Source of the DNA: Bacteroidales bacterium
GTDB lineage: Bacteria > Bacteroidota > Bacteroidia > Bacteroidales > UBA7960
Assembly (NCBI GenBank): GCA_007131245.1
Contig: SLQX01000131.1
Location: forward strand, 1 to 51,183
Direction of reading: 5' to 3'
Length of the DNA stretch: 51,183 bases
The notes under the pieces are model-generated. The model ran no database searches. It worked only from the letters and a program-made list of their open reading frames with translations, and was not told the DNA's origin. Of the stretch, positions 9,412 to 30,053 are shown one piece after another. A program made the position numbers and the translations under genes. Numbering within the stretch: position 1 is the stretch's first letter; every line of letters starts with the position of its first letter.

Positions 9412-10758
9412 TTACAAATCAAAAACCTCTTTTTTAAATTGGTTACCGCGGTCTTCAAAATCATCAAACAAATCGAAACTGGCACAAGCCGGTGATAGCA
9501 GTACCACATCCCCATCCTGACCCAGATAATATGCTGACTTAACGGCATCAGCAGCACCAGAGGTTTCAATAATATTGGGAACCACAGAGCTAAATGCTTC
9601 AAGAATACGCTGGTTGTCTTTTCCCAGGCAAATAATGGCTTTTACTTTTTGCCGGACCAGCTCCTTCAAAGAGTCATAGTCGTTACCCTTATCAATACCT
9701 CCTACAATCCATACAATCGGCTTATTCATACTCTCCAGTGCGTACCAGGTAGAGTTGATATTGGTGGCTTTACTGTCGTTGATAAACTCAATACCTCTGA
9801 CCACCGCAACATGCTCAAGACGATGTTCAATATTCTCAAACTCCGTCAGGCTCTGCTTGATAACTTCCTTTCGAATATCCAGCAACCTGGATGTTATGCC
9901 GGAAGCCATGGTATTGTATATGTTTTGCCTGCCTGTTAATGCTAAATCTTTAATATCCATTTCAAGTATTTCTCCGTTTATATTGATTACCAATGTATTT
10001 TCATTTATTAAATAAGCTCCGCACCGATCATCGGCGGAAACGGTAAAAGGAATCTGCCGGGAAGAAATAACACTTCTTTCCAGATTCTTACGAATTACTT
10101 CATCATCCTGTAGATAAATAAAATAATCTACTGACGACTGGTTTCGTGTAATTCTAAATTTGGAATCCACATACTTTTCAAACTGTTGGTCATATCGATC
10201 CAGATGGTCGGGGGTGATATTGAGCAAAACAGCGATTTCGGCTTTAAAATCAAACATTCCATCCAGCTGAAAACTGGAAATCTCCAACACATAATAATCG
10301 AAATCCTCTTCTGCTACCTGCCATGCAAAACTTTGTCCCACGTTGCCGGCCAGTCCAACATTAAGACCTGCCTTTTTCATGATGTGGTAGGTAAGCATGG
10401 CAGTGGTGGTTTTTCCATTGCTCCCGGTAATGCCTATTTTGGTGGCATTGGTATATCTGGCGGCAAATTCGATTTCCGAAATCACGGGAATTTCTTTTTG
10501 CCGGGCCCTTTGCACCAATTCAACCGTATCGGGAATACCGGGGCTTTTGATAATTTCACCCACCGACATTATCCGTTCTGTAGTATGCTTTTGTTCCTCC
10601 CAGGGAATTCCATGAAGATTAAGAACGTTTTTATATTTATCACTAATTATTCCTTTATCTGACACCCATACCCGGAGTCCTTTTTGTTTTGCCAGCACCG
10701 CTGCACCGGTCCCGCTTTCTCCTGCACCCAAAATAGCTATGTCAAAGCTGCCACTCAT
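9412..10758 (-). CDS. murD: UDP-N-acetylmuramoyl-L-alanine--D-glutamate ligase MurD
   Basis: Cytoplasmic ligase adding D-glutamate to UDP-MurNAc-L-Ala. An N-terminal nucleotide-fold 'ILGAGESGTGAAVLA' starts at residue 9, and the ATP loop 'GSNGKTTT' is at 112-119. 'NITPDHLDRY' and a later 'FINDSKATN' match the MurD central and C-terminal domains. At 448 residues it has normal length. It lies 2 bp after the mraY stop; about 70 bp separate its stop from the ftsW ATG. Confidence 0.97.
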   Translation of the reverse strand: MSGSFDIAILGAGESGTGAAVLAKQKGLRVWVSDKGIISDKYKNVLNLHGIPWEEQKHTTERIMSVGEIIKSPGIPDTVELVQRARQKEIPVISEIEFAARYTNATKIGITGSNGKTTTAMLTYHIMKKAGLNVGLAGNVGQSFAWQVAEEDFDYYVLEISSFQLDGMFDFKAEIAVLLNITPDHLDRYDQQFEKYVDSKFRITRNQSSVDYFIYLQDDEVIRKNLERSVISSRQIPFTVSADDRCGAYLINENTLVININGEILEMDIKDLALTGRQNIYNTMASGITSRLLDIRKEVIKQSLTEFENIEHRLEHVAVVRGIEFINDSKATNINSTWYALESMNKPIVWIVGGIDKGNDYDSLKELVRQKVKAIICLGKDNQRILEAFSSVVPNIIETSGAADAVKSAYYLGQDGDVVLLSPACASFDLFDDFEDRGNQFKKEVFDL

Positions 10759-10760
10759 CC

Positions 10761-12017
10761 CTACCTCACTTTCAGGGTTAGGATAGATATCACGGCCAAA
10801 ACAATACCCACAATCAAAAACCGCTGCACAATTTTTGCTTCGTGGTAGCCCAGTAACTGATAGTGGTGGTGCAAGGGAGCCATTTTGAATATCCTCCGCC
10901 CCTCACCAAAGCGCCAACGGGTTAACTTAAACCAGGTCACCTGCATAACCACCGAAAGGCTCTCCATGAAAAATATCCCACACATAATGGGAATGAGCAA
11001 TTCCTTACGGATAATAATGGCAAAAACCGCAATGATTCCACCCAGTGATAAGCTTCCCGTATCGCCCATAAACACCTGTGCGGGGTAGGAATTATACCAC
11101 ATAAACCCTATACAGGCCCCCACAAAGGCAGCAATAAAAATTACCATTTCCCCGGTATTGGGGATGTACATAATATTGAGATAATCCGAAAAAATAACAT
11201 TACCCGATACATAAGCCAGCACCCCCAGCGCCACTCCAATAATGGCTGAGGTGCCGGTGGCCAAACCATCCAGGCCATCCGTCATATTGGCACCATTGGA
11301 TACGGCTGTTATAATCAAAATAACAATGGGTATAAAAATCAGGAATGTCCACCTCTCGTATCCATCGCCCATCCATCGCAACAAAATCGAGTAATCAAAC
11401 TCATTATCCTTAAAGAAAGGGATCGTGGTTTTTGTCGACTTGGAAGTCTCCAACACTGCCTCATCGGGAGATTTGTGCATGCCGTCAATTTCAAGTAACT
11501 CATCAGATGTAACATACTGGTAGTCGGGCACTACCTTTTCTCGTATCACAACCGAATCACTGAAATACAAAATGCTTCCCACAATAATGCCGAGTCCAAC
11601 CTGTCCCAAAATTTTGAATTTTCCGTGCAATCCTTTCTTATCTTTTCTGAAAACTTTAATATAGTCATCCAGGAAGCCTATGGCTCCAAGCCAAAGTGTT
11701 GAAAACAGGAGTAAAAGGATATAGATGTTATCAAGACGCGCAAACAACAACCCTGGAATAACCACAGAAGCAATTATGATAACACCACCCATAGTGGGTG
11801 TGCCCTGCTTTTGCATTTGCCCTTCCAGCCCAAGATTTCTCACCGATTCTCCCACCTGCTTTTTCTGCAAATAATGGATAATTTTTTTACCAAAAATCAT
11901 GGAAATAAACAGTGAGACAATGATGGCCATGGCCGCCCTGAAAGAGATATACTGAAACAACCCTGCTCCCGGTATATCAAAATTACTGTCCAGATATGCG
12001 AATAAATGATACAACAT
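10761..12017 (-). CDS. mraY: Phospho-MurNAc-pentapeptide transferase MraY
   Basis: Polytopic inner-membrane enzyme transferring phospho-MurNAc-pentapeptide to undecaprenyl phosphate (lipid I). Catalytic aspartates are in 'GFLDDYIKV' (residues 114-122) and '[10 protein letters not shown]' (244-253); the 'HHHYQLLG' loop is near the C-terminus. At 418 residues it is about 60 longer than E. coli MraY. The extra part is a hydrophilic, acidic segment at roughly residues 155-215, between two membrane helices. Bacteroidota MraY proteins commonly carry such an insertion; the reading frame is intact, so it is not a frameshift. It sits 13 bp after murE and 2 bp before murD. Confidence 0.97.
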
Positions 12018-20616: not shown

Positions 20617-21612
20617 TCACGGACGGTATCGTGATTGGGATAATATCTCTCGTGAATCGGTCATGCCAAACAACTCCTCCAGGCTTACGTCATCGTTTCG
20701 TTCCATAAAGCTTCGCACAATCTGCCAACCGTTATAAACGGCCATTCGTGGTGCAGATTCATTACCAAAAGGAGCGGTAAAAGGACCTGTACCTGTTAGT
20801 TTTTGAATCATTTGACGCTCCGTATCATAAAGGAGTTCATTGTTTACATAAAAAGACCAGGAGTGTCCTTCATTTTGCTGCGCCCAGTTGATTTGCCTGG
20901 TAGTGTAGGAAATTTTCAACGAATCGGGCAGATCGGGAAACATACTATCCATAAAATAAAGCAGTTTCCCTTCTTCTACCATAAAATCGAGCAAGGTTTC
21001 CGGAGCCATGGGGTAATTTTGTTGGAGCACTTGTCCATACTCCCGTATTATCTCTACTGATGCAGCATCAGGAACAAAGCGAGTTCTTTTAAAAGCAGGC
21101 ACCCCCACCTTTTCATAGTTCTCATAATCTCTTCCCAAAAACATATCCAGGCCTACAATTAGGTTGCCTTCAAAATATTTAACAGGGTGCTCAAAATCAA
21201 GACCGGAGATGTAAGAATAAAAAACCGGTTTAGGGTACTGAGGAAAATGATATTTGAGATATCTTAAAGCCAGGGTCAAATCCTCTTCAAGCTCATCGAT
21301 ATCGCTCCACACCTGCTGTGTGTCATCATAGAGATCTCTAATCATAGGATCAGTAATATAATCGTAAAGCTGCTGCTGTCCCATAGGTGTATTGATTTCT
21401 TCACCAAGGAAAAGATTATAGTCATCAATATACGGGTCAATCTCCTGGCGTAAGTTACCAGGGTCAATTTCAAAAAGCACCTTTTCATATCGTTTTACCT
21501 CAACCGGTGTCACTTCCACAGAAGAGATATTTACATCCCAGGGGCTTTTGCGTTTACACCCCCCCAAAAAAAGAATAATCAAAATAAGTACTGCTGCAGT
21601 TAACGATCGCAT
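20617..21612 (-). CDS. gldB: Gliding motility lipoprotein GldB
   Basis: A 331-residue lipoprotein: hydrophobic signal with lipobox 'LGGC' (Cys19). The body matches GldB in its motifs 'FFYSYISGLDFEHPVKY'-like core, 'GLDMFLG', and a zincin-like tail 'GHSWSFYVNNELLYDTE' with 'FGNESAPRMAVYNGWQIV'. GldB is required for gliding in Flavobacterium and belongs to the set of envelope lipoproteins associated with the gliding/T9SS machinery, though homologues occur in non-gliders. The adjacent barrel gene and the T9SS cargo at the window start are consistent. The biochemical role of GldB is unresolved. Confidence 0.85.
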   Translation of the reverse strand: MRSLTAAVLILIILFLGGCKRKSPWDVNISSVEVTPVEVKRYEKVLFEIDPGNLRQEIDPYIDDYNLFLGEEINTPMGQQQLYDYITDPMIRDLYDDTQQVWSDIDELEEDLTLALRYLKYHFPQYPKPVFYSYISGLDFEHPVKYFEGNLIVGLDMFLGRDYENYEKVGVPAFKRTRFVPDAASVEIIREYGQVLQQNYPMAPETLLDFMVEEGKLLYFMDSMFPDLPDSLKISYTTRQINWAQQNEGHSWSFYVNNELLYDTERQMIQKLTGTGPFTAPFGNESAPRMAVYNGWQIVRSFMERNDDVSLEELFGMTDSREILSQSRYRP

Positions 21613-22807: not shown

Positions 22808-22842
22808 AAACAAATGCCCGGCACATTACCGGGCATTTGTTT
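22808..22842. terminator. Bidirectional terminator
   Basis: Arms 22808-22821 and 22829-22842 (AAACAAATGCCCGG / CCGGGCATTTGTTT) pair perfectly around a 7-nt loop, with A and T tracts on both sides. It separates the convergent zinc-ribbon gene (+) and the six-gene exported-protein cassette (-). Confidence 0.9.
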
Positions 22843-22880
22843 AAAATCATTGAGAGTATAAATATTTTATTTTTCCGACT

Positions 22881-24170
22881 TCACCAGTCTGTTGTATATG
22901 CCTGGTTGTGCATGCGGTAGGTCTTGGTTTCCCCGGTCACATCAGATCTGTAGTTAATATACCCCGACAACATGGAGACTCTTCTGTTGGAAGATGTGGT
23001 TTTTTCCAGGTCCATAGGCTGGCTGACTTCAAGACTTATGGAGTGATTACCTTCACCTGAGAAACTTTCGCCAATATTTTCTGCCGATACAGGGGGGTGT
23101 CCCGGCCATTGGAGAACTACCCGGTCTATGGTGAAAGGGAATTCATAGCGTGAAACCACCGTAAGGTTTATACGGACGGTTTCAATCATATCATCCTTTT
23201 GCGAAACCTGAGATAAATGTATTGGGTCATTGACAAAAATGGACACTTTTTCACGGGTAATATCAAAATAAAATTGCTCACGCACATTGGTGTTGCCAAA
23301 CCTGTAGTGTACAAGGATATGATTTTCAGGATCCTCCCAGCAATTTTGATAATCATAATTGATTTGAACATACTCCTGCTCAACAGATGTTCCGGTAATA
23401 CGGGCACAGTCAGAACTAACTCTGGGCCGTTGTGTGGTATGAATAAACCGGTCACCCAGTCTCACGGCATATTTTAATTCACCCAGGCTGCTTTCGATCT
23501 CCACCAGATCAATATTTTCATAAATACCCCTATAACGGGAAATAGCCATTTGGGCCCTATCCTTTCGGGCGTCCACAAAATAATCAGCCAGTACCCGCAG
23601 CTCTTCAATGCTTTGGGCAACATCCTCCAGCGAGGAAACCTCATCTACTCCGTTATAAAGCTCATCGAGCTGTTCGCTCATTTCCCTGTCGCGCATGCGG
23701 AACTGCATGGCCAGCTTTTGGAGTTCGAAGTCAGGAAAAGGATATTTTATATGGTAATTAAAGGTGGTGCTGCCAGTGGAACGATTTTCAATTTTCTCCC
23801 AGTAATAGTCGTCTACTTTCGACAATGTAACACCTTGCAGGTAGGGAACAGGCCCGGATGCAGCTGTAGTGGTTGTGGCAAAACTCTGGAAATAGCTGGA
23901 TACCGAATTATTGATGCTCTCTTCTCTTGAAGAGAACTCAGCGGTGGTTTGTACATTTTGAGCAACGGCATTCACAATATTTTCCCTTATCATGTTGAGC
24001 GCATTCTTCTGGGCATCCTGTGCAGTATTACCTGTACCTGCCACAATAATATAATCTTTCTCAAGGCCGTTTACCCAGGAAGGCTTTCTCCCGCTTTGGT
24101 CGACAACACGGGATTGCCCCATGCATGCCAGCAGGGAGAACACGAAAAAAACAAACAAGATATTTTTCAT
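22881..24170 (-). CDS. LPP20-like lipoprotein, last gene of the exported cassette
   Basis: About 429 residues from the ATG at 24170; the frame is open further upstream but that start begins a lipoprotein signal ('MKNILFVFFVFSLLACMGQ', lipobox LLAC, Cys16). After 'KPSWVNG' comes the LPP20-type pattern 'YIIVAGTGNTAQDAQKNAL'. A helical segment (~170-230) and a beta-rich C-terminal half follow. LPP20/FlgP-like domains occur in outer-membrane-associated lipoproteins, among them parts of the Vibrio H-ring. No enzyme motif is visible. It is the last of six tightly spaced minus-strand genes, all with export signals, and is followed by the strong terminator at 22808-22842. Confidence 0.75.
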   Translation of the reverse strand: MKNILFVFFVFSLLACMGQSRVVDQSGRKPSWVNGLEKDYIIVAGTGNTAQDAQKNALNMIRENIVNAVAQNVQTTAEFSSREESINNSVSSYFQSFATTTTAASGPVPYLQGVTLSKVDDYYWEKIENRSTGSTTFNYHIKYPFPDFELQKLAMQFRMRDREMSEQLDELYNGVDEVSSLEDVAQSIEELRVLADYFVDARKDRAQMAISRYRGIYENIDLVEIESSLGELKYAVRLGDRFIHTTQRPRVSSDCARITGTSVEQEYVQINYDYQNCWEDPENHILVHYRFGNTNVREQFYFDITREKVSIFVNDPIHLSQVSQKDDMIETVRINLTVVSRYEFPFTIDRVVLQWPGHPPVSAENIGESFSGEGNHSISLEVSQPMDLEKTTSSNRRVSMLSGYINYRSDVTGETKTYRMHNQAYTTDW

Positions 24171-24248
24171 GTAAAAAGTGTTTGGGTTAAAAAAAACTGT
24201 CAACTCTGCACCTTGGGTGAGAGCTGACAGTAGCACTAGTAAAGCAGG

Positions 24249-24839
24249 TTATGGTCTCTCGTCACGGAGATTTTCCATTTCCTCGTTGAAGATTTCTTCA
24301 AACTTCATGCGGTCATAGTCCAGGCGCAGGCGGTCATCACGGCTGATTCTGGAGTTAATGTCATTGAGCAACTCATCTTTGTCCACTTCCACAGCCAAAT
24401 AAACCGAATAACGACCTTCGTTTTCAAAGGTGCGATTGCAAACGGTAGAAACATTATTGAGTGTTTGGTTAACCACCTGGCGGGTCATATCTTCAAAGTT
24501 TTGGTTAAACTCCATGGCATCACCAATGGTAACATCCTGGGTGTAGCGTTCAGTAACCGATTTAATGGTACTGTTGATGCTTGTTGCCAGGGCAGCGTTG
24601 GCATCAAGGCTTGCCTGGCGGCGTGCTGAGGCAAGGTTAGTGCTCTCGCCAATTCCTGTTCCCCTGAAGTGGGTATTGTCAGAGTAAAATTCATTGTCGC
24701 TACAGGGGATTTCCAGTTCAGTACCCATAGCACTGTAATCAGGCGTATCCTTTTTGCTGCGGCAGCCGGAAAAAACAACAGCCACAGCAAAAAAAACTGT
24801 AAATGCCATCATCAGGGTTTTCATTTCTGTTTTTTTCAT
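24249..24839 (-). CDS. LPP20-like small lipoprotein
   Basis: A 196-residue lipoprotein with a basic start, a hydrophobic segment and lipobox 'FSGC' (Cys26). The mature part has 'GTGIGESTNLASARRQASLD', the same glycine/alanine spacing as in LPP20-domain proteins, followed by helices and an acidic/basic C-terminus ('DRMKFEEIFNEEMENLRDERP'). The next ATG, five codons on, is an equal alternative start. Function unknown; its place between two other exported proteins (78 and 51 bp gaps) suggests a shared complex. Confidence 0.75.
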   Translation of the reverse strand: MKKTEMKTLMMAFTVFFAVAVVFSGCRSKKDTPDYSAMGTELEIPCSDNEFYSDNTHFRGTGIGESTNLASARRQASLDANAALATSINSTIKSVTERYTQDVTIGDAMEFNQNFEDMTRQVVNQTLNNVSTVCNRTFENEGRYSVYLAVEVDKDELLNDINSRISRDDRLRLDYDRMKFEEIFNEEMENLRDERP

Positions 24840-24890
24840 GTCATGATAGTTTTAAGTGAATAATATTGGTGATTAAAAGGTATTTTGTAT

Positions 24891-25850
24891 TTAATTTTTA
24901 TAGAGCCAACTCCAGTCGAAATGGCGTGCTGCCCCCCAGTAAGCCCACCTTTTGGCAACATCTCTGCCTGCTTCAATGCGCAATCTCTCCATTTCCACAT
25001 CATCCCGGTAGGTTTCCATTTTAAAGTCCCATGCACTGGCACCTTCGGCTTCCACATGCGCTGTTACCTCTTCCATGAGTCCCTGGGCTTCTTCATAGCA
25101 ATCCATGTCGGGGGTTATCTCGCCCATATTTTCCCTGAATGCATTCAGCTCTTTGGCCGACCATGCAGCCCGGGCTTTGGACAAATGCTCATCACACTTT
25201 TGGTTGGCATAATCCTGGTATATGTCGGCAGTAAGGGCCATGGATGTATGAAAACAATCACGGCTAACATCAGGAACCGACATAAGCCAGAAAAGCGCTT
25301 CTTCATACTTCTGTTGAGCGGCAAGAGCTTCCGATTGAGAGATAATCACATCGCACTGGGAGTTGTAATACTCTACAATTTTCTCTTTACCGGTCTCCAC
25401 AAACCCTCTGAACTGCCCATGGCTGGGGTTAACATTTCTCAAAGCCTGGGAGTAGGCTCTCTCTTCTGTGTTACCCACACCCCTTAGCTGAAGGGTTGTC
25501 TGGCTAAAGATATTCTGGCTTAATGCATCCACAATAAAAAGGCTCAACTCTATATTCATGGAAACCATAGGAGGTGCTGTGGGCGTCACATCGTGGGAAA
25601 TAACCGATACCATGGGAACCATTGCAAACTGAGTTCTTTCCTCCATGGCACCCAACCCATTGCGGGTAGCAACCTGCATCATCTTGCTCTGCAGCATGGT
25701 TTGCGCACCGCCGGGAATACCAGCCTCATCAGGCACCAGGGCAGCAATAGCAATACGCCCCAAATCATCGGTTTGCCCCAGGTTACTTTGGGCTCGTACA
25801 TGTACTGTAACTAAAAACAGGACGATAAGCCCGAGAAATACTTTTTTCAT
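24891..25850 (-). CDS. Exported protein with CsgG/TolB-like N-terminal region, unknown function
   Basis: 319 residues from the ATG at 25850, which begins a Sec signal peptide ending 'VHVRAQ'; an upstream TTG would extend it by 13. The first ~80 mature residues ('DLGRIAIAALVPDEAG...LQSKMMQVATRNGLGAM') look like the alpha/beta start of CsgG, FlgT middle and TolB-N domains, judged by eye only. A segment 'LRGVGNTEERAYSQALRNV' echoes the LPP20 motif of its neighbours. The C-terminal half is helical, with several cysteines (five in the mature part), suggesting disulfides or helical repeats. Function not known. Confidence 0.68.
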   Translation of the reverse strand: MKKVFLGLIVLFLVTVHVRAQSNLGQTDDLGRIAIAALVPDEAGIPGGAQTMLQSKMMQVATRNGLGAMEERTQFAMVPMVSVISHDVTPTAPPMVSMNIELSLFIVDALSQNIFSQTTLQLRGVGNTEERAYSQALRNVNPSHGQFRGFVETGKEKIVEYYNSQCDVIISQSEALAAQQKYEEALFWLMSVPDVSRDCFHTSMALTADIYQDYANQKCDEHLSKARAAWSAKELNAFRENMGEITPDMDCYEEAQGLMEEVTAHVEAEGASAWDFKMETYRDDVEMERLRIEAGRDVAKRWAYWGAARHFDWSWLYKN

Positions 25851-25907
25851 AGTCAATATTTTATGTAATACAAATACAAACAGTTGCATTGCACAGCTTC
25901 ATGTAAA

Positions 25908-26876
25908 TTATCTTTCACCAACGATAAGCCAGGCTTCACCAAGTCCTCTCATATAGATTCTTGAATCAATATCGAAGTTTTGGCGCAAATGCCGTCTTAA
26001 ATCACTCACAAAGCCCCTTGTATCAACAGCCCTTTCACGCCCCCGGCGATCAACGGTCATCATGGGTATACGCACCTGTTCCAGCCGCATCATGGTGTGA
26101 GAAGCATCAGCCAGGCTAAAACGTCCTTCAACTGTATTGTCAAAAAACCAGTCCTCGATATGTTCCAGCAGCTCCATTTCCACTCCATCGTAGTAATAAT
26201 AGGTTTCCAAATCTCCATCGTACCAGTCCTCCCATACTCTTACCATAACACTAACTTCACGCCCATTGGCAAACATGTCATCGAAGTGGCGCATCAAGCC
26301 GGCATTAAACCCGTCCATATGACTAAGCACAGCCTCTTCCAGCAAAAGTTCGGGTGAAGCCGCCGAGGAGGGTTTTCCGGCCCCTGCAGCCCCGGACACC
26401 TGCTTTGAGGTGTAGGCGTCAAGACCTCTGAGGTTGAATGTGATATAACGGTGAGGCCCTTGTTTTAGGATATCAAAACTCAAGTCGAGGATAATATCGG
26501 CCTGCGCAGTTCTTTTCAAAATATCGATAGGTGTTTCGGCAACCTGGGCGCCAGAAGAGGAAGCAATCATGGCCGTTTCAGCAGCTTCTCTTTCCATGTT
26601 GCGCAACTCCATTTCAAGGTCTTTCAGGGGAAATCCACGATCAGCCATAATCTCACCCATTTTGGTAATGACCAAGCGAAGATCGGCGTCGTTTTGCATA
26701 GCAGCTTTGTAATCGGGCAAGGTTTGAGTGCGGCCCATTGATTCAAACTCCATTTTATAACCCCGGCTGATACAATATTGATCGCTGGGAACAACCATAA
26801 TGGTTGGTCTGCGAGCCTGTCCAAAAAGATTTAATGCGATGAGGGAAAAAACGATAACAGTAATAAATGTTCTCAT
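25908..26876 (-). CDS. Exported DUF6175-like protein
   Basis: A 322-residue protein with a Sec signal ('MRTFITVIVFSLIALNLFGQA'). The mature protein begins 'RRPTIMVVPSDQYCISRGY', which I recall as the hallmark start of the DUF6175 family found in Bacteroidota. 'ADIILDLSFDIL' and 'YITFNLRGLDAYTSKQVSG' resemble the strands of CsgG-like or TolB-N-like folds. A later 'MVRVWEDWYDGDLE' precedes a beta-rich C-terminus. No catalytic motif is visible. It lies in the middle of the six-gene exported cassette (38 bp after the previous gene). Confidence 0.72.
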   Translation of the reverse strand: MRTFITVIVFSLIALNLFGQARRPTIMVVPSDQYCISRGYKMEFESMGRTQTLPDYKAAMQNDADLRLVITKMGEIMADRGFPLKDLEMELRNMEREAAETAMIASSSGAQVAETPIDILKRTAQADIILDLSFDILKQGPHRYITFNLRGLDAYTSKQVSGAAGAGKPSSAASPELLLEEAVLSHMDGFNAGLMRHFDDMFANGREVSVMVRVWEDWYDGDLETYYYYDGVEMELLEHIEDWFFDNTVEGRFSLADASHTMMRLEQVRIPMMTVDRRGRERAVDTRGFVSDLRRHLRQNFDIDSRIYMRGLGEAWLIVGER

Positions 26877-26914
26877 TGTTAAAGATTTTTTGGTGTTTAC
26901 GAAGTTACTGTAAA

Positions 26915-27451
26915 TTAAAACCCATGGTCAAGTCTGCGTGCAATACCGTCAGCTTCAAGCTGGCGGCGCAGATTATCATACAATACCTGGGCATAAATGG
27001 CCACTTTGTACCCGCGTGGGTTGTTCATCCTGAGCCTGTCCTGCCCACTGGGCATTCCATCGGTGGTGAGGTTTAAAAACCTGAGAAATGTACCATCGGG
27101 CTCAAAGAAGCTCTCAAAGTAATCAGCATGCTTATCTATGGCGTTGGGATCACGCAGTATGGCTGGAGTAGCAGCCGCCCCATGACCACCGGGCACACCT
27201 CGAAAAATCACTGCTGCAACCGCGTTCATTTTGGCCTGCAATATAGCATCTTCCACATTTCTTCCATATCCCCAAATCTTCATGGTTTTGGTACCATCCT
27301 GACCAACGCCGGTAATTTCCACCTCGTAATTTTGTTCGCTCCGGTAATGCGCTCTCCTGTCGCTCCTTGAATGGCGGGCTCCTGAACAACCCAGTTCAAC
27401 CCACACAAACAAAAACAACAGGAAAAACATTAAAACTCTTGTCTTTTTCAT
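26915..27451 (-). CDS. Small lipoprotein with LPP20-like motif
   Basis: 178 residues. The signal is hydrophobic with lipobox 'ELGC' (Cys22), and a basic stretch 'HSRSDRRAHYRSE' follows. The core 'IWGYGRNVEDAILQAKMNAV' has the glycine/alanine pattern seen in other members of this cassette. The stretch '...VIFRGVPGGHGAAATPAI' is glycine- and alanine-rich. I do not recognise a named family. It is second in transcription order, between the barrel protein and the DUF6175-like protein. Confidence 0.7.
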   Translation of the reverse strand: MKKTRVLMFFLLFLFVWVELGCSGARHSRSDRRAHYRSEQNYEVEITGVGQDGTKTMKIWGYGRNVEDAILQAKMNAVAAVIFRGVPGGHGAAATPAILRDPNAIDKHADYFESFFEPDGTFLRFLNLTTDGMPSGQDRLRMNNPRGYKVAIYAQVLYDNLRRQLEADGIARRLDHGF

Positions 27452-27521
27452 AGCAGGAAATTTTTATTTTGAAACAATTGTGACTCGTCGTTTAAAATTT
27501 TTATCCGGTAAAATTAATGAT

Positions 27522-29138
27522 TTAAAACATGAATTTTATCCCGGCGAAAAAAGAAAGGCCGCTCCTTCCTTCAAATAAATCATCCCAGGGACCATATGTA
27601 TTACCATCATCATCTTCGGCATCCGTAACAAAAGCATAATATCCACCCCCACCGATAAGCTGGAAATTGTGCGTCAAATTCAGTGCCAAATTACCGCCAC
27701 CTTTGACAAAATAGGCCGAAAGTTCATCGTCATCCTCAAAATCATCGTGGTCCGCATTTTCAATACCAAATCCTGCATAAGGTCTCAACTCCAGGTTTCT
27801 TGTAATATGCATCCCCTTGGCCAGGCCTGCACTGGCCCTAAGAAAAGTAAAATCTTCCTGTATTACACCATACTCTCCAGCATCAAAACCCAAATCCACA
27901 TAGACGTATAAAGCACTGATGCCCGTTAAACGCCCGGTTCTTAAATCCAAACGTCCGTAACCCCCGCCTATTTCTCCAAGTTCAGCCCCCAGGCTGATTT
28001 CTATACCAACATCATTTTTTTGCACCAGGGTATACCCTTCATGCAACCGGCGACCAGCCACCTGGTAAAACTGTGAAGTACCCATATCACCGATGGCTTC
28101 ATGACGATTATCATGAATTTTTGAGCTGGAGGCAGCCCTGATCACACCACGGCGAACAGGACGTGTTTCCCCGGTTCTGGTATCATATACATGTTCATAC
28201 ACAAAAAAACGATTATCCGTTTGCAGCCCTTCCTTCAATCCTATTTTAGCACCCAGTGGCCTGGTCTGATACAGAGGAGTAACCACCCTAAAAGCATCAA
28301 CTTCCATCTCAAGGTTATAAAGCACCTCTTCGTAAGACTTTTGAATCATTTCTGCAAAAAGCTCATCACTGGTTTTGGAGCCAAAGGCTTTACTTTGTGT
28401 AGAACGAACTCTGGCGGAAACGTTAGTTACATAATCCAAAGGGATATCCAGATTATCAAAAGCCTCGTTCTTTTGGGCACGGGTTTCAGGATCATCATCC
28501 GGATAAATCCATGTTTGATAAAACTGGCTTCGCACTTCATCATTAAAGTCAACCTGATAGAGGTACCCGTCAGCATTTGCTCTCCATCCTTCTGTATTAT
28601 TATCATCCACACTTTCAATATCCTGTAGGTCCATTACCAGCACATAACTCCTGTTAATCAACCTATTGCCCATATCACGCAAGGCCGCCTCTCCCCTGCT
28701 GGTAGCCTGTAACATTACCACATCGGCATCCGTAGCGGCAAACCGTCCCCTTTCATGAACCAACTCCATGTCCATGGTACCATCAGGCTGACGATTATAC
28801 CATTTGGCTATCATTTTGCGGCTTACATCATCCTGCTCAAGACGAGATAAAATTCTTTCGCTCAGTGGTTGGTCCTCATCTAATCGCCCACCTCGTCTTA
28901 TAGCAATATTCAAAATCAGCGTTTCCAGGTTGTGGACATCGTATTTGTCGGAAAAACCAATGCTGGGAATTTTTTCCCGGGCTTTACCCCAATAGCTGGT
29001 ACCTGACCTGTCAATAAAAAAAACAGCAACCGAGTTGCGATCATAAGATTCGGGCACACCCCCATCATCTCTCTTTTCCTGGCTCAATAACGAACTACTT
29101 AAAGCCAGAACAAACAGCACTAGTAGACTTTTTTTCAT
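27522..29138 (-). CDS. Exported protein with C-terminal outer-membrane barrel, first gene of the cassette
   Basis: 538 residues from the ATG at 29138, which begins a Sec signal ('MKKSLLVLFVLALSSSLLSQ'). The N-terminal ~340 residues are mixed alpha/beta ('NSVAVFFIDRSGTSYWGKA', 'RSYVLVMDLQDIESVDD') with no motif I know. From about residue 365 the protein turns into alternating strands and glycine-rich turns ('GIEISLGAELGEIGGGYG', 'ELRPYAGFGIE') and ends in Phe, as an outer-membrane barrel does. An acidic loop rich in Asp lies between late strands. A perfect TAnnTTTG element is found 116 bp upstream of the ATG. As the only predicted barrel of the group it may anchor the others to the outer membrane. 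Confidence 0.72.
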   Translation of the reverse strand: MKKSLLVLFVLALSSSLLSQEKRDDGGVPESYDRNSVAVFFIDRSGTSYWGKAREKIPSIGFSDKYDVHNLETLILNIAIRRGGRLDEDQPLSERILSRLEQDDVSRKMIAKWYNRQPDGTMDMELVHERGRFAATDADVVMLQATSRGEAALRDMGNRLINRSYVLVMDLQDIESVDDNNTEGWRANADGYLYQVDFNDEVRSQFYQTWIYPDDDPETRAQKNEAFDNLDIPLDYVTNVSARVRSTQSKAFGSKTSDELFAEMIQKSYEEVLYNLEMEVDAFRVVTPLYQTRPLGAKIGLKEGLQTDNRFFVYEHVYDTRTGETRPVRRGVIRAASSSKIHDNRHEAIGDMGTSQFYQVAGRRLHEGYTLVQKNDVGIEISLGAELGEIGGGYGRLDLRTGRLTGISALYVYVDLGFDAGEYGVIQEDFTFLRASAGLAKGMHITRNLELRPYAGFGIENADHDDFEDDDELSAYFVKGGGNLALNLTHNFQLIGGGGYYAFVTDAEDDDGNTYGPWDDLFEGRSGLSFFAGIKFMF

Positions 29139-29253
29139 AAACAAAAAATTAATTAACGGTATGTTTCCCTTGGATTCATCCTCTGCATAGGTCCTACTTT
29201 TCATAATTTCATATGGATGGCAGATAATTTTCTATTTCCATCTTTCAACATTA

Positions 29254-29261
29254 CAAATATA
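29254..29261 (-). promoter_or_regulatory. -7 promoter element for the six-gene exported cassette
   Basis: TATATTTG on the minus strand is a full match to TAnnTTTG, 116 bp upstream of the ATG at 29138. No -33 TTTG at the standard distance. Confidence 0.5.
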
Positions 29262-29546
29262 TAAAAAAGCGTTAATTTTGTTAGTTTAATTCCACAAAAT
29301 GTGAAATATGTTTTAAACAATTAAAATAAAGATAAAACACTAAAAAGTTATAACAACGCTAAAACACTTGAAGCTGACAACACATTTTGTTAAAAACATA
29401 GCCATTACCTACTTTGAGTTTTTTTTTAAACGTTATTAACATGTCTGCAAGGGGTTATCAACAAGGTTATAATTTCCTGCAAAGCATCATCAGAAGTATA
29501 AATATACAAACACCATCCAAAACGCAATAACTACCTTAAAAATTTT

Positions 29547-29554
29547 TACTTTTG
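29547..29554 (+). promoter_or_regulatory. -7 promoter element for the 29577 gene
   Basis: TACTTTTG is a full match to TAnnTTTG, 22 bp before the ATG, which predicts a very short leader. No clear -33 element. Confidence 0.5.
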
Positions 29555-29576
29555 TTTTTCACAACATTCAAAAGCC

Positions 29577-30053
29577 ATGAAACAAACCCTATTGCTTATT
29601 GTCATTATTTGCCTTAGTGCTTTAGCTACACATGCACAGGACAATCGCGCTCTAAGAGCTGCGAGAATGAGTTTCAATGATGCAGAAACAAATTACAACA
29701 GGGGAAACTACCAGGAAGCAGCCAGGGAATTTACCATTGTAGTTAACACCATACCCACCGGCATTGATTCACGAAGACACCTGCAAAGGAGGCTCGAATC
29801 GCTCATTTATCTGGTGGATATCCATTTTTATAAGCATGTTAATATTGATCAGGCGTGCGAATACCTTAACATGTATTACCGCGAAATGAACCTCATAAGA
29901 AATGATGGTATATTGCGGTCTTCCCGCCTTTTGAGATATCAGCAAAAAGAACAGGAGTTCAGGGAGTCTCATACGCCAAAATGCAAAGGATACCATAGGA
30001 TTAAACAGGACAGGGATAAATTCAGAAGAACCTTTGAAAAGGAATTCGAATAA
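29577..30053 (+). CDS. Small exported protein, TPR-like
   Basis: 158 residues with a Sec signal peptide ('MKQTLLLIVIICLSALATHAQ'). The next stretch 'RMSFNDAETNYNRGNYQEAAREFTIV' has the spacing of a tetratricopeptide-type helix pair, and the rest is helical and basic at the end. No further domain is recognised. It is transcribed divergently from the exported six-gene cassette and could belong with it. A full-match -7 element lies 22 bp upstream. Confidence 0.68.
   Translation: MKQTLLLIVIICLSALATHAQDNRALRAARMSFNDAETNYNRGNYQEAAREFTIVVNTIPTGIDSRRHLQRRLESLIYLVDIHFYKHVNIDQACEYLNMYYREMNLIRNDGILRSSRLLRYQQKEQEFRESHTPKCKGYHRIKQDRDKFRRTFEKEFE

Follow-up and report, generated by a model that had tools for sequence, protein, structure and literature searches.

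FlgT combines an N (SHS2), an M (TolB-like) and a C domain in one protein. Together with FlgO and FlgP it makes up the H-ring (PMC6375700), which is thought to aid outer-membrane crossing, to anchor the flagellum and to be required for the stators to assemble (PMC7990780). In Campylobacter, FlgP is described as making concentric outer-membrane-associated rings, and ring formation in the FlgP/FlgT family as going together with extra residues inserted after the SHS2 helix and before the strand that follows it, which form a beta-hairpin in FlgP (PMC12222027). Helicobacter FapH, a lipoprotein encoded beside flgP, forms a ring for which a role in protecting the outer-membrane barrier has been proposed (PMC11756786), and TraT is presented as a decameric outer-membrane cork (PMC11733297). 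Here we analysed a 51,183-nucleotide stretch of a Bacteroidales genome (GenBank assembly GCA_007131245.1, contig SLQX01000131.1; hereafter the window), where an operon of six consecutive minus-strand open reading frames (ORFs), g1 to g6, encodes exported proteins, several of them resembling H-ring components. The operon is a real system. With a probability of roughly one in two, it encodes an outer-membrane-anchored, periplasm-facing scaffold of H-ring fold types, which would reinforce or organise the outer membrane around a non-flagellar structure. The six genes are the following:

27522 to 29138, minus strand: g1, exported, with a FlgT-like periplasmic region (about residues 28-375) and then a predicted 8-stranded outer-membrane barrel (376-538)
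26915 to 27451, minus strand: g2, exported, LPP20/FlgP-like topology by inspection only
25908 to 26876, minus strand: g3, DUF6175 protein whose first half has a CsgG/PelC/TolB-N/FlgT-M-like predicted fold
24891 to 25850, minus strand: g4, exported, with an N-domain of alpha/beta type that is related to the C-domain in LPP20 proteins from deep lineages, then a weakly TPR/ARM-like part
24249 to 24839, minus strand: g5, LPP20 lipoprotein
22881 to 24170, minus strand: g6, exported, N-terminal domain of LPP20 type followed by a long C-part of unassigned fold

Inner methionine starts were chosen for g1 (29138), g4 (25850) and g6 (24170) as they give clean signal peptides. The intergenic gaps are then 70, 38, 57, 51 and 78 bp, in keeping with the 38-78 bp of the initial annotation of this DNA. 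The export signal it had noticed on each of the six proteins was also seen by inspection. Its count of three lipoproteins had to be lowered: in the window only g5 and g6 fit the lipobox pattern, the g2 cysteine following E-L-G. Among aligned members, this pattern is found in 8/41 g2, 14/19 g5 and 9/34 g6 proteins, Sec-type signal ends fit 30 of the 41 g2 and 20 of the 34 g6 members, and an invariant lipoprotein cysteine occurs only in g5 (19/19). Scans for sigma-70-like and Bacteroidota-type promoters gave no more matches than chance, the NCBIfam scan of the operon proteins gave nothing useful and PADLOC returned no result.

A survey of gene neighbourhoods showed that the genes are kept together. 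It covered the 80 best-matching loci out of at least 544 relatives, every one of the 80 from a metagenome-assembled genome; this sample leans to close relatives. Order was judged in the 46 loci with at least 3.0 kb before and at least 3.5 kb after g3 (33 of the other 34 have short flanks and one, L119, lacks a g3 call); a doubled g2 was allowed and other ORFs between the genes were not excluded. In 41 of the 46 loci (all except L073, L101, L102, L103 and L115), g1, g2, g3 and g4 share a strand and stand in this sequence, and this core order is kept across g3 identities of 84% to 50%. Individual genes are present in 43 (g1), 45 (g2), 44 (g4), 35 (g6) and 25 (g5) of the judged loci. The position of g5 varies, being divergent upstream of g1 (L046, L069, L071) or after g6 (L052 and L060, for example). 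ORF clustering over the 80 loci revealed no other family as widespread as g1-g6, the next largest occurring in 11 loci.

The distribution of DUF6175, the family of g3, gives a similar picture. It was found in 13/296 genomes of the phylum, in 8/31 close relatives and in 67/295 genomes of the window's order (of which 66 exceed the cut-off), spread over 50 of 184 genera, the window's own genome being included in each count. At all 19 other hits of the phylum and close-relative scans, the DUF6175 gene is adjoined by a g4-type gene or, in eight of them, by a gene called K1 (deep-branching loci L032-L039). The g4 and g2 profiles each detected 5/296 phylum genomes, all within the 13 DUF6175 carriers; the hypergeometric chance of five out of five is about 7e-8, calculated by hand without correcting for kinship. 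With each profile, 8 of the 13 carriers were missed, so that both are insensitive to the deep forms, and the eight missed by the g4 profile are the deep loci L032-L039.

Gene fusions also link the components. In 5/80 loci (L091, L106, L108, L109, L112), g2 and g3 form one protein. L032-L039 carry two neighbouring genes, K1 and K2, which were compared with the operon proteins by hhalign using, as throughout, profiles of mature regions with signal peptides removed. The halves of K2 match g2 (95.2) and g3 (96.2) with the eight fused rows only; two unfused L031 proteins, with which the profile had given 97.9 and 97.6, were dropped. In K1, the N-part gave 92.5 with g5 and a less clear 68.2 with g6, and the C-part matches the g4 N-domain with a probability of 93.0. 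Pfam found DUF6175 in both scanned K2 proteins (L032, L039), and all three scanned K1 proteins (L032, L034, L039) pass the LPP20 cut-off. As judged by these matches, g2 and g3 are joined in deep lineages, and so are an LPP20 domain and the domain of g4. The genes could still be a loose set, expressed together and encoding exported proteins that do not form a complex, given the patchy presence of g5 and g6 and the g5-type genes lying beside LPP20 genes without a g3 hit in L170, L171 and L172. The core order maintained down to 50% g3 identity, together with the g2-g3 and LPP20-g4 fusions, makes such a loose association distinctly unlikely.

Of the six proteins, g3 alone was confidently named by Pfam, as DUF6175 (PF19672; E 3e-104, 348.6 bits for a cut-off of 23), the family to which the initial annotation had likened one gene. 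No paper naming DUF6175 was found in the open-licence literature, and none of the titles listed there points to a non-flagellar system of LPP20/CsgG/TolB/FlgT/FlgP type in Bacteroidota. The folds of g3 and g2 were read from a model of the fused g2-g3 relative of L109 (predicted local distance difference test, pLDDT, 81.2; predicted template modelling score, pTM, 0.69). The alignment rows behind g3 were picked by trial for correct placement by MAFFT, which left 15 rows for g3. FlgT is the top Foldseek match of this model (E 1.1e-4, probability 0.89, 432 columns, root-mean-square deviation (rmsd) 24.3), followed by GNA1162 (E 5.7e-4), and only these two fall below E 0.001. Each list from the VIA comparisons is taken up mostly by a single domain, so that folds absent from it may still be present. 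Among the matches listed, those of the g3 first half (about residues 164-356 of L109) are to CsgG 4q79 (Z 10.2, rmsd 3.9 over 130), PelC (Z 9.9, rmsd 2.6 over 108) and FlgT (Z 8.7, rmsd 3.8 over 136), with LptE and TolB scoring lower. In this model, the first half of g3 has the CsgG/TolB-N/FlgT-M fold. The CsgG/TolB-like start that had been noticed, seemingly in g4, is best supported in g3, by structure, and then in g1; for g4 it relies on a profile link to deep-lineage proteins and an alignment read by eye.

CsgG forms the collar for curli and PelC that for the Pel polysaccharide. The operon could accordingly encode an export or assembly device, its CsgG/PelC-like domains forming a collar under an outer-membrane exit. 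CsgG and PelC being the best VIA matches of the g3 first half would fit such a device, as would L022, where the g1 place is held by a 275-amino-acid protein that passes the Pfam CsgG cut-off (21.0 vs 20.8). We nevertheless judge it unlikely, since the g1 barrel is 8-stranded, like the small barrels OprF and OmpA, and no further family matches g1-g6 in spread over the 80 loci, although curli subunit and Pel genes were not searched for. The same L022 protein scores 21.8 with LpoB (cut-off 22.3), and a protein near the g1 place in L023 has only a weak LpoB score (14.9 for the same cut-off). The L022 score would suit regulators of peptidoglycan synthases acting in the manner of LpoB, an explanation that we find very unlikely: the L022 score is below the cut-off and comes from a distant relative, and six exported proteins seem, in our judgement, many for this task, although no search was made for synthase genes linked to the operon.

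In the g2 part of the L109 model, a strand and a helix are followed by about 40 inserted residues (81-120), further strands and a last helix. By eye, this order of elements matches that described for FlgP, and the insert lies at the ring-linked position of the FlgP/FlgT family. In the model g2 is therefore LPP20-like by topology only; Pfam detected no relevant family in the 41 g2 members (0/41 for LPP20 and no FlgT).

The model of g1 (47-row alignment; pLDDT 90.2, pTM 0.84) ends in a beta-barrel, as had been anticipated. Residues 376-538 form 8 strands (spanning 379-537) and match OprF, NspA and OmpA in VIA with Z 16.2-16.8, OprF giving Z 16.8 and rmsd 2.9 over 132; the C-terminal residue is Phe in 38/47 aligned members. 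FlgT (3w1e) ranks fourth in Foldseek (E 3.4e-6, probability 1.00, 391 columns, rmsd 13.2), behind three chains of one barrel protein, and is the best non-barrel match among the 50 listed. Over residues 28-375, VIA gave Z 8.7 with 3w1e (rmsd 11.3 over 222) and Z 8.9 (rmsd 11.8 over 210) with chain 0 of 8z5n (titled LPHT ring), which we take to be FlgT. Given this large rmsd, the modelled domains are placed differently from those of FlgT, and the evidence for this likeness is moderate. Pfam FlgT was found neither in the 47 g1 members (0/47) nor in g1-g6 of the window. As judged by length, the barrel is apparently absent from g1 forms of 404-486 amino acids (L021, L070, L082, L092, L116, L118).

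LPP20 (PF02169; cut-off 25.9) matches g5 with 26.3 bits in a six-frame genome scan and 25.3 bits in the protein scan, and g6 with 16.3-16.4 bits, below the cut-off. With E up to 0.1, it was detected in 15/19 g5 and 13/34 g6 members (best 4e-5). We compared the profiles with nine LPP20 proteins, those left of 19 once proteins matching window genes had been removed: hhalign gave 96.4 for g5 and 95.7 for g6, with reversed controls at 0.1-0.2. From these profile matches, g5 and g6 are LPP20 relatives, which supports the initial annotation for these two. In contrast, g4 was rejected as an LPP20 protein, with 6.1 by hhalign and no LPP20 among the family matches listed for it (25 of 27). A TT21 ARM match was obtained in 22/37 g4 members (E up to 0.1). 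The C-parts of g4 vary, once including an F5/8 type C domain (L043), and g4 may meet different partners; the L043 protein concerned is a second, longer g4 copy (9997-11511), and other long g4 tails differ.

An LPP20-like motif had been pointed out in four of the genes. In its strict form, G.G.....A...A, it is conserved in g2 (30/41), g4 (25/37) and g6 (20/34), compared with 2/19 in g5, 3/47 in g1, 0/7 in g3 and a background of 6/447 ORFs (at least 150 amino acids, no hit to window genes, 80 loci); the g5 of the window carries it only loosely. Since g5 and g6 are of LPP20 type and the g4 copy lies in another alpha/beta domain, the motif, although conserved, is found in two or more domain types and does not define a single one.

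The system was expected to be present in organisms without flagella, and most carriers fit this expectation. FlhA is absent from the window's own genome (96.95% complete) and from 18/20 carriers in all, the 20 genomes being 84% to 100% complete so that a gene may occasionally be missed. The two FlhA-bearing carriers (G109, G243) do not belong to the window's class, and in both FlhA and DUF6175 are on different contigs.

Taken together, these results suggest how a scaffold could be built. LPP20/SHS2-type domains (g5, g6, probably g2) would assemble beside domains of CsgG/TolB-N/FlgT-M type (g3, g1, probably g4); the barrel of g1, in this clade, and the lipid of g5 would anchor the assembly in the outer membrane, which it would reinforce or organise around some envelope structure different from the flagellum. 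The initial annotation had proposed an outer-membrane ring or scaffold with another use. The conserved unit, the FlgT/CsgG-like folds, the LPP20 relationship of g5 and g6 and the carriers lacking FlhA support this in part; assembly into one complex, the ring shape and the bracing role are what we infer by analogy with the H-ring, for a barrel- and lipid-anchored scaffold that is possibly a ring. The alternative named at the outset, a group without LPP20/CsgG-like folds whose genes are not kept together, is at odds with the FlgT/CsgG-like models and the conserved order. A more specific version, in which the operon encodes a non-flagellar H-ring, that is, a Bacteroidota outer-membrane ring machine common in the window's order and locked by a barrel in this clade, is possible, if on the doubtful side.

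Several observations weigh against the proposed scaffold. The folds of CsgG and TolB-N also serve unrelated tasks. Whole-chain fits to FlgT are loose, both for g1 (Foldseek rmsd 13.2, VIA near the level of common arrangements) and for the g2-g3 fusion (Foldseek rmsd 24.3). The g2 insert is modelled as helices, compared with the beta-hairpin of FlgP. No sequence link was found between g2 and LPP20 (hhalign 0.6) or between g1, g3 or g4 and the CsgG profile (at most 1.1), and alignment-based sequence searches of solved structures gave no credible relative (best E 0.06). Finally, g5 (25/46) and g6 (35/46) are patchy, and the barrel would not be a core feature because short g1 relatives seem to be without it.

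Neighbouring genes were also inspected. The initial annotation had considered that a divergent gene might belong to the system:

29577 to 30053, plus strand: small exported TPR-like gene, judged outside the system

It was found in only 4/80 loci (L040, L041, L042, L044), each of which also has nadE. A GldB-family gene (20617-21612 of the window) is near the operon in 3/80 loci (L040, L041, L044), which keep other window neighbours too.

In 10/80 loci, with g3 identities within the group down to 58%, g1 is preceded on its strand by one recurring set of gene families that includes ExbB and ExbD. The operon could thus provide a scaffold for an ExbBD-type ion-driven motor, as the H- and T-rings assist stator assembly in Vibrio. 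The arrangement concerns one subset only, outside the window's own clade, and may be a plain inherited position; we regard this role as highly improbable. In these loci (L043, L045, L048, L054, L055, L057, L061, L062, L074, L081), the upstream set comprises an asparaginase-type gene, one of ExbB type, two of ExbD type and a further small gene, with a TatD-type gene in 9; an alkaline-phosphatase-type gene, found in 11 loci, lies between the ExbB set and g1. ExbB and the phosphatase were named by Pfam in L057, and TatD, asparaginase and the two ExbD by eye.

Further exported proteins occur beside g5 or g1, one of 320-378 amino acids in 8 loci and one of about 885 amino acids, transglutaminase-like by eye, in 9 loci (L060, L046, L052, L063, L065, L069, L071, L084, L094, L095 and L107 for these extra proteins); neither has a Pfam match in L060 (12977-16665). 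L046 (183-5771) includes a 605-amino-acid LPP20 protein. Upstream of the operon, a very large opposite-strand ORF (1640-1985 amino acids, some cut by the locus end) was observed in L085, L090, L093, L103, L111, L114 and L119; that of L090, the only one of the seven scanned, carries PKD repeats. In L170 (8157-11553), genes of CsgG, LPP20 and g5 type follow one another with no g3 hit and make up a cluster that is related to the operon but distinct from it. The own genome also encodes a second LPP20 lipoprotein (L169, contig C16, 7664-10701; 457 amino acids, 48.3 bits), whose gene lies beside that of a protein with weak TPR scores and near a BamD-like gene (by eye). Its C-domain is TraT-like below the cut-off (27 vs 31 bits) and matches solved TraT at E 0.08.

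If the scaffold reading is right, more than one fifth of the sampled genomes of the order (the 67/295 with DUF6175) carry an undescribed outer-membrane assembly, the flagellar H-ring is one use of a wider scaffold kit and DUF6175 gains a testable structural role. If the assembly were a non-flagellar H-ring, the parts of the H-ring would derive from an outer-membrane scaffold of general use, which a non-flagellar machine also employs.

Among known systems, TraT is an indirect comparison: the C-domain of the L169 protein lines up by eye with the g4 N-domain, but its TraT score stays below the cut-off and TraT is absent among the family matches listed (25 of 27) for 37 g4 members. The lipoproteins CsgG (curli) and PelC share the modelled fold of the g3 first half, whereas Pfam CsgG (PF03783) has no match in any of the six proteins at E up to 1 and 0 matches in the own genome. 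The LPP20 family, with Campylobacter FlgP and Helicobacter Lpp20, is close in that g5 reaches the score in the genome scan and both g5 and g6 are linked by profile, although g6 is below the cut-off, g2 resembles it by topology only and g4 (6.1) falls outside. The Vibrio H-ring differs in that 18/20 operon carriers are without FlhA and 0/47 g1 members match Pfam FlgT, and in that g1 here has an outer-membrane barrel and FlgT-like domains are spread over separate genes. Nevertheless, both bring together several exported proteins and the same pair of folds, LPP20/SHS2 and TolB/CsgG-like, and FlgT is the top-ranked match of the g2-g3 model and, behind a single barrel protein, the fourth of g1.

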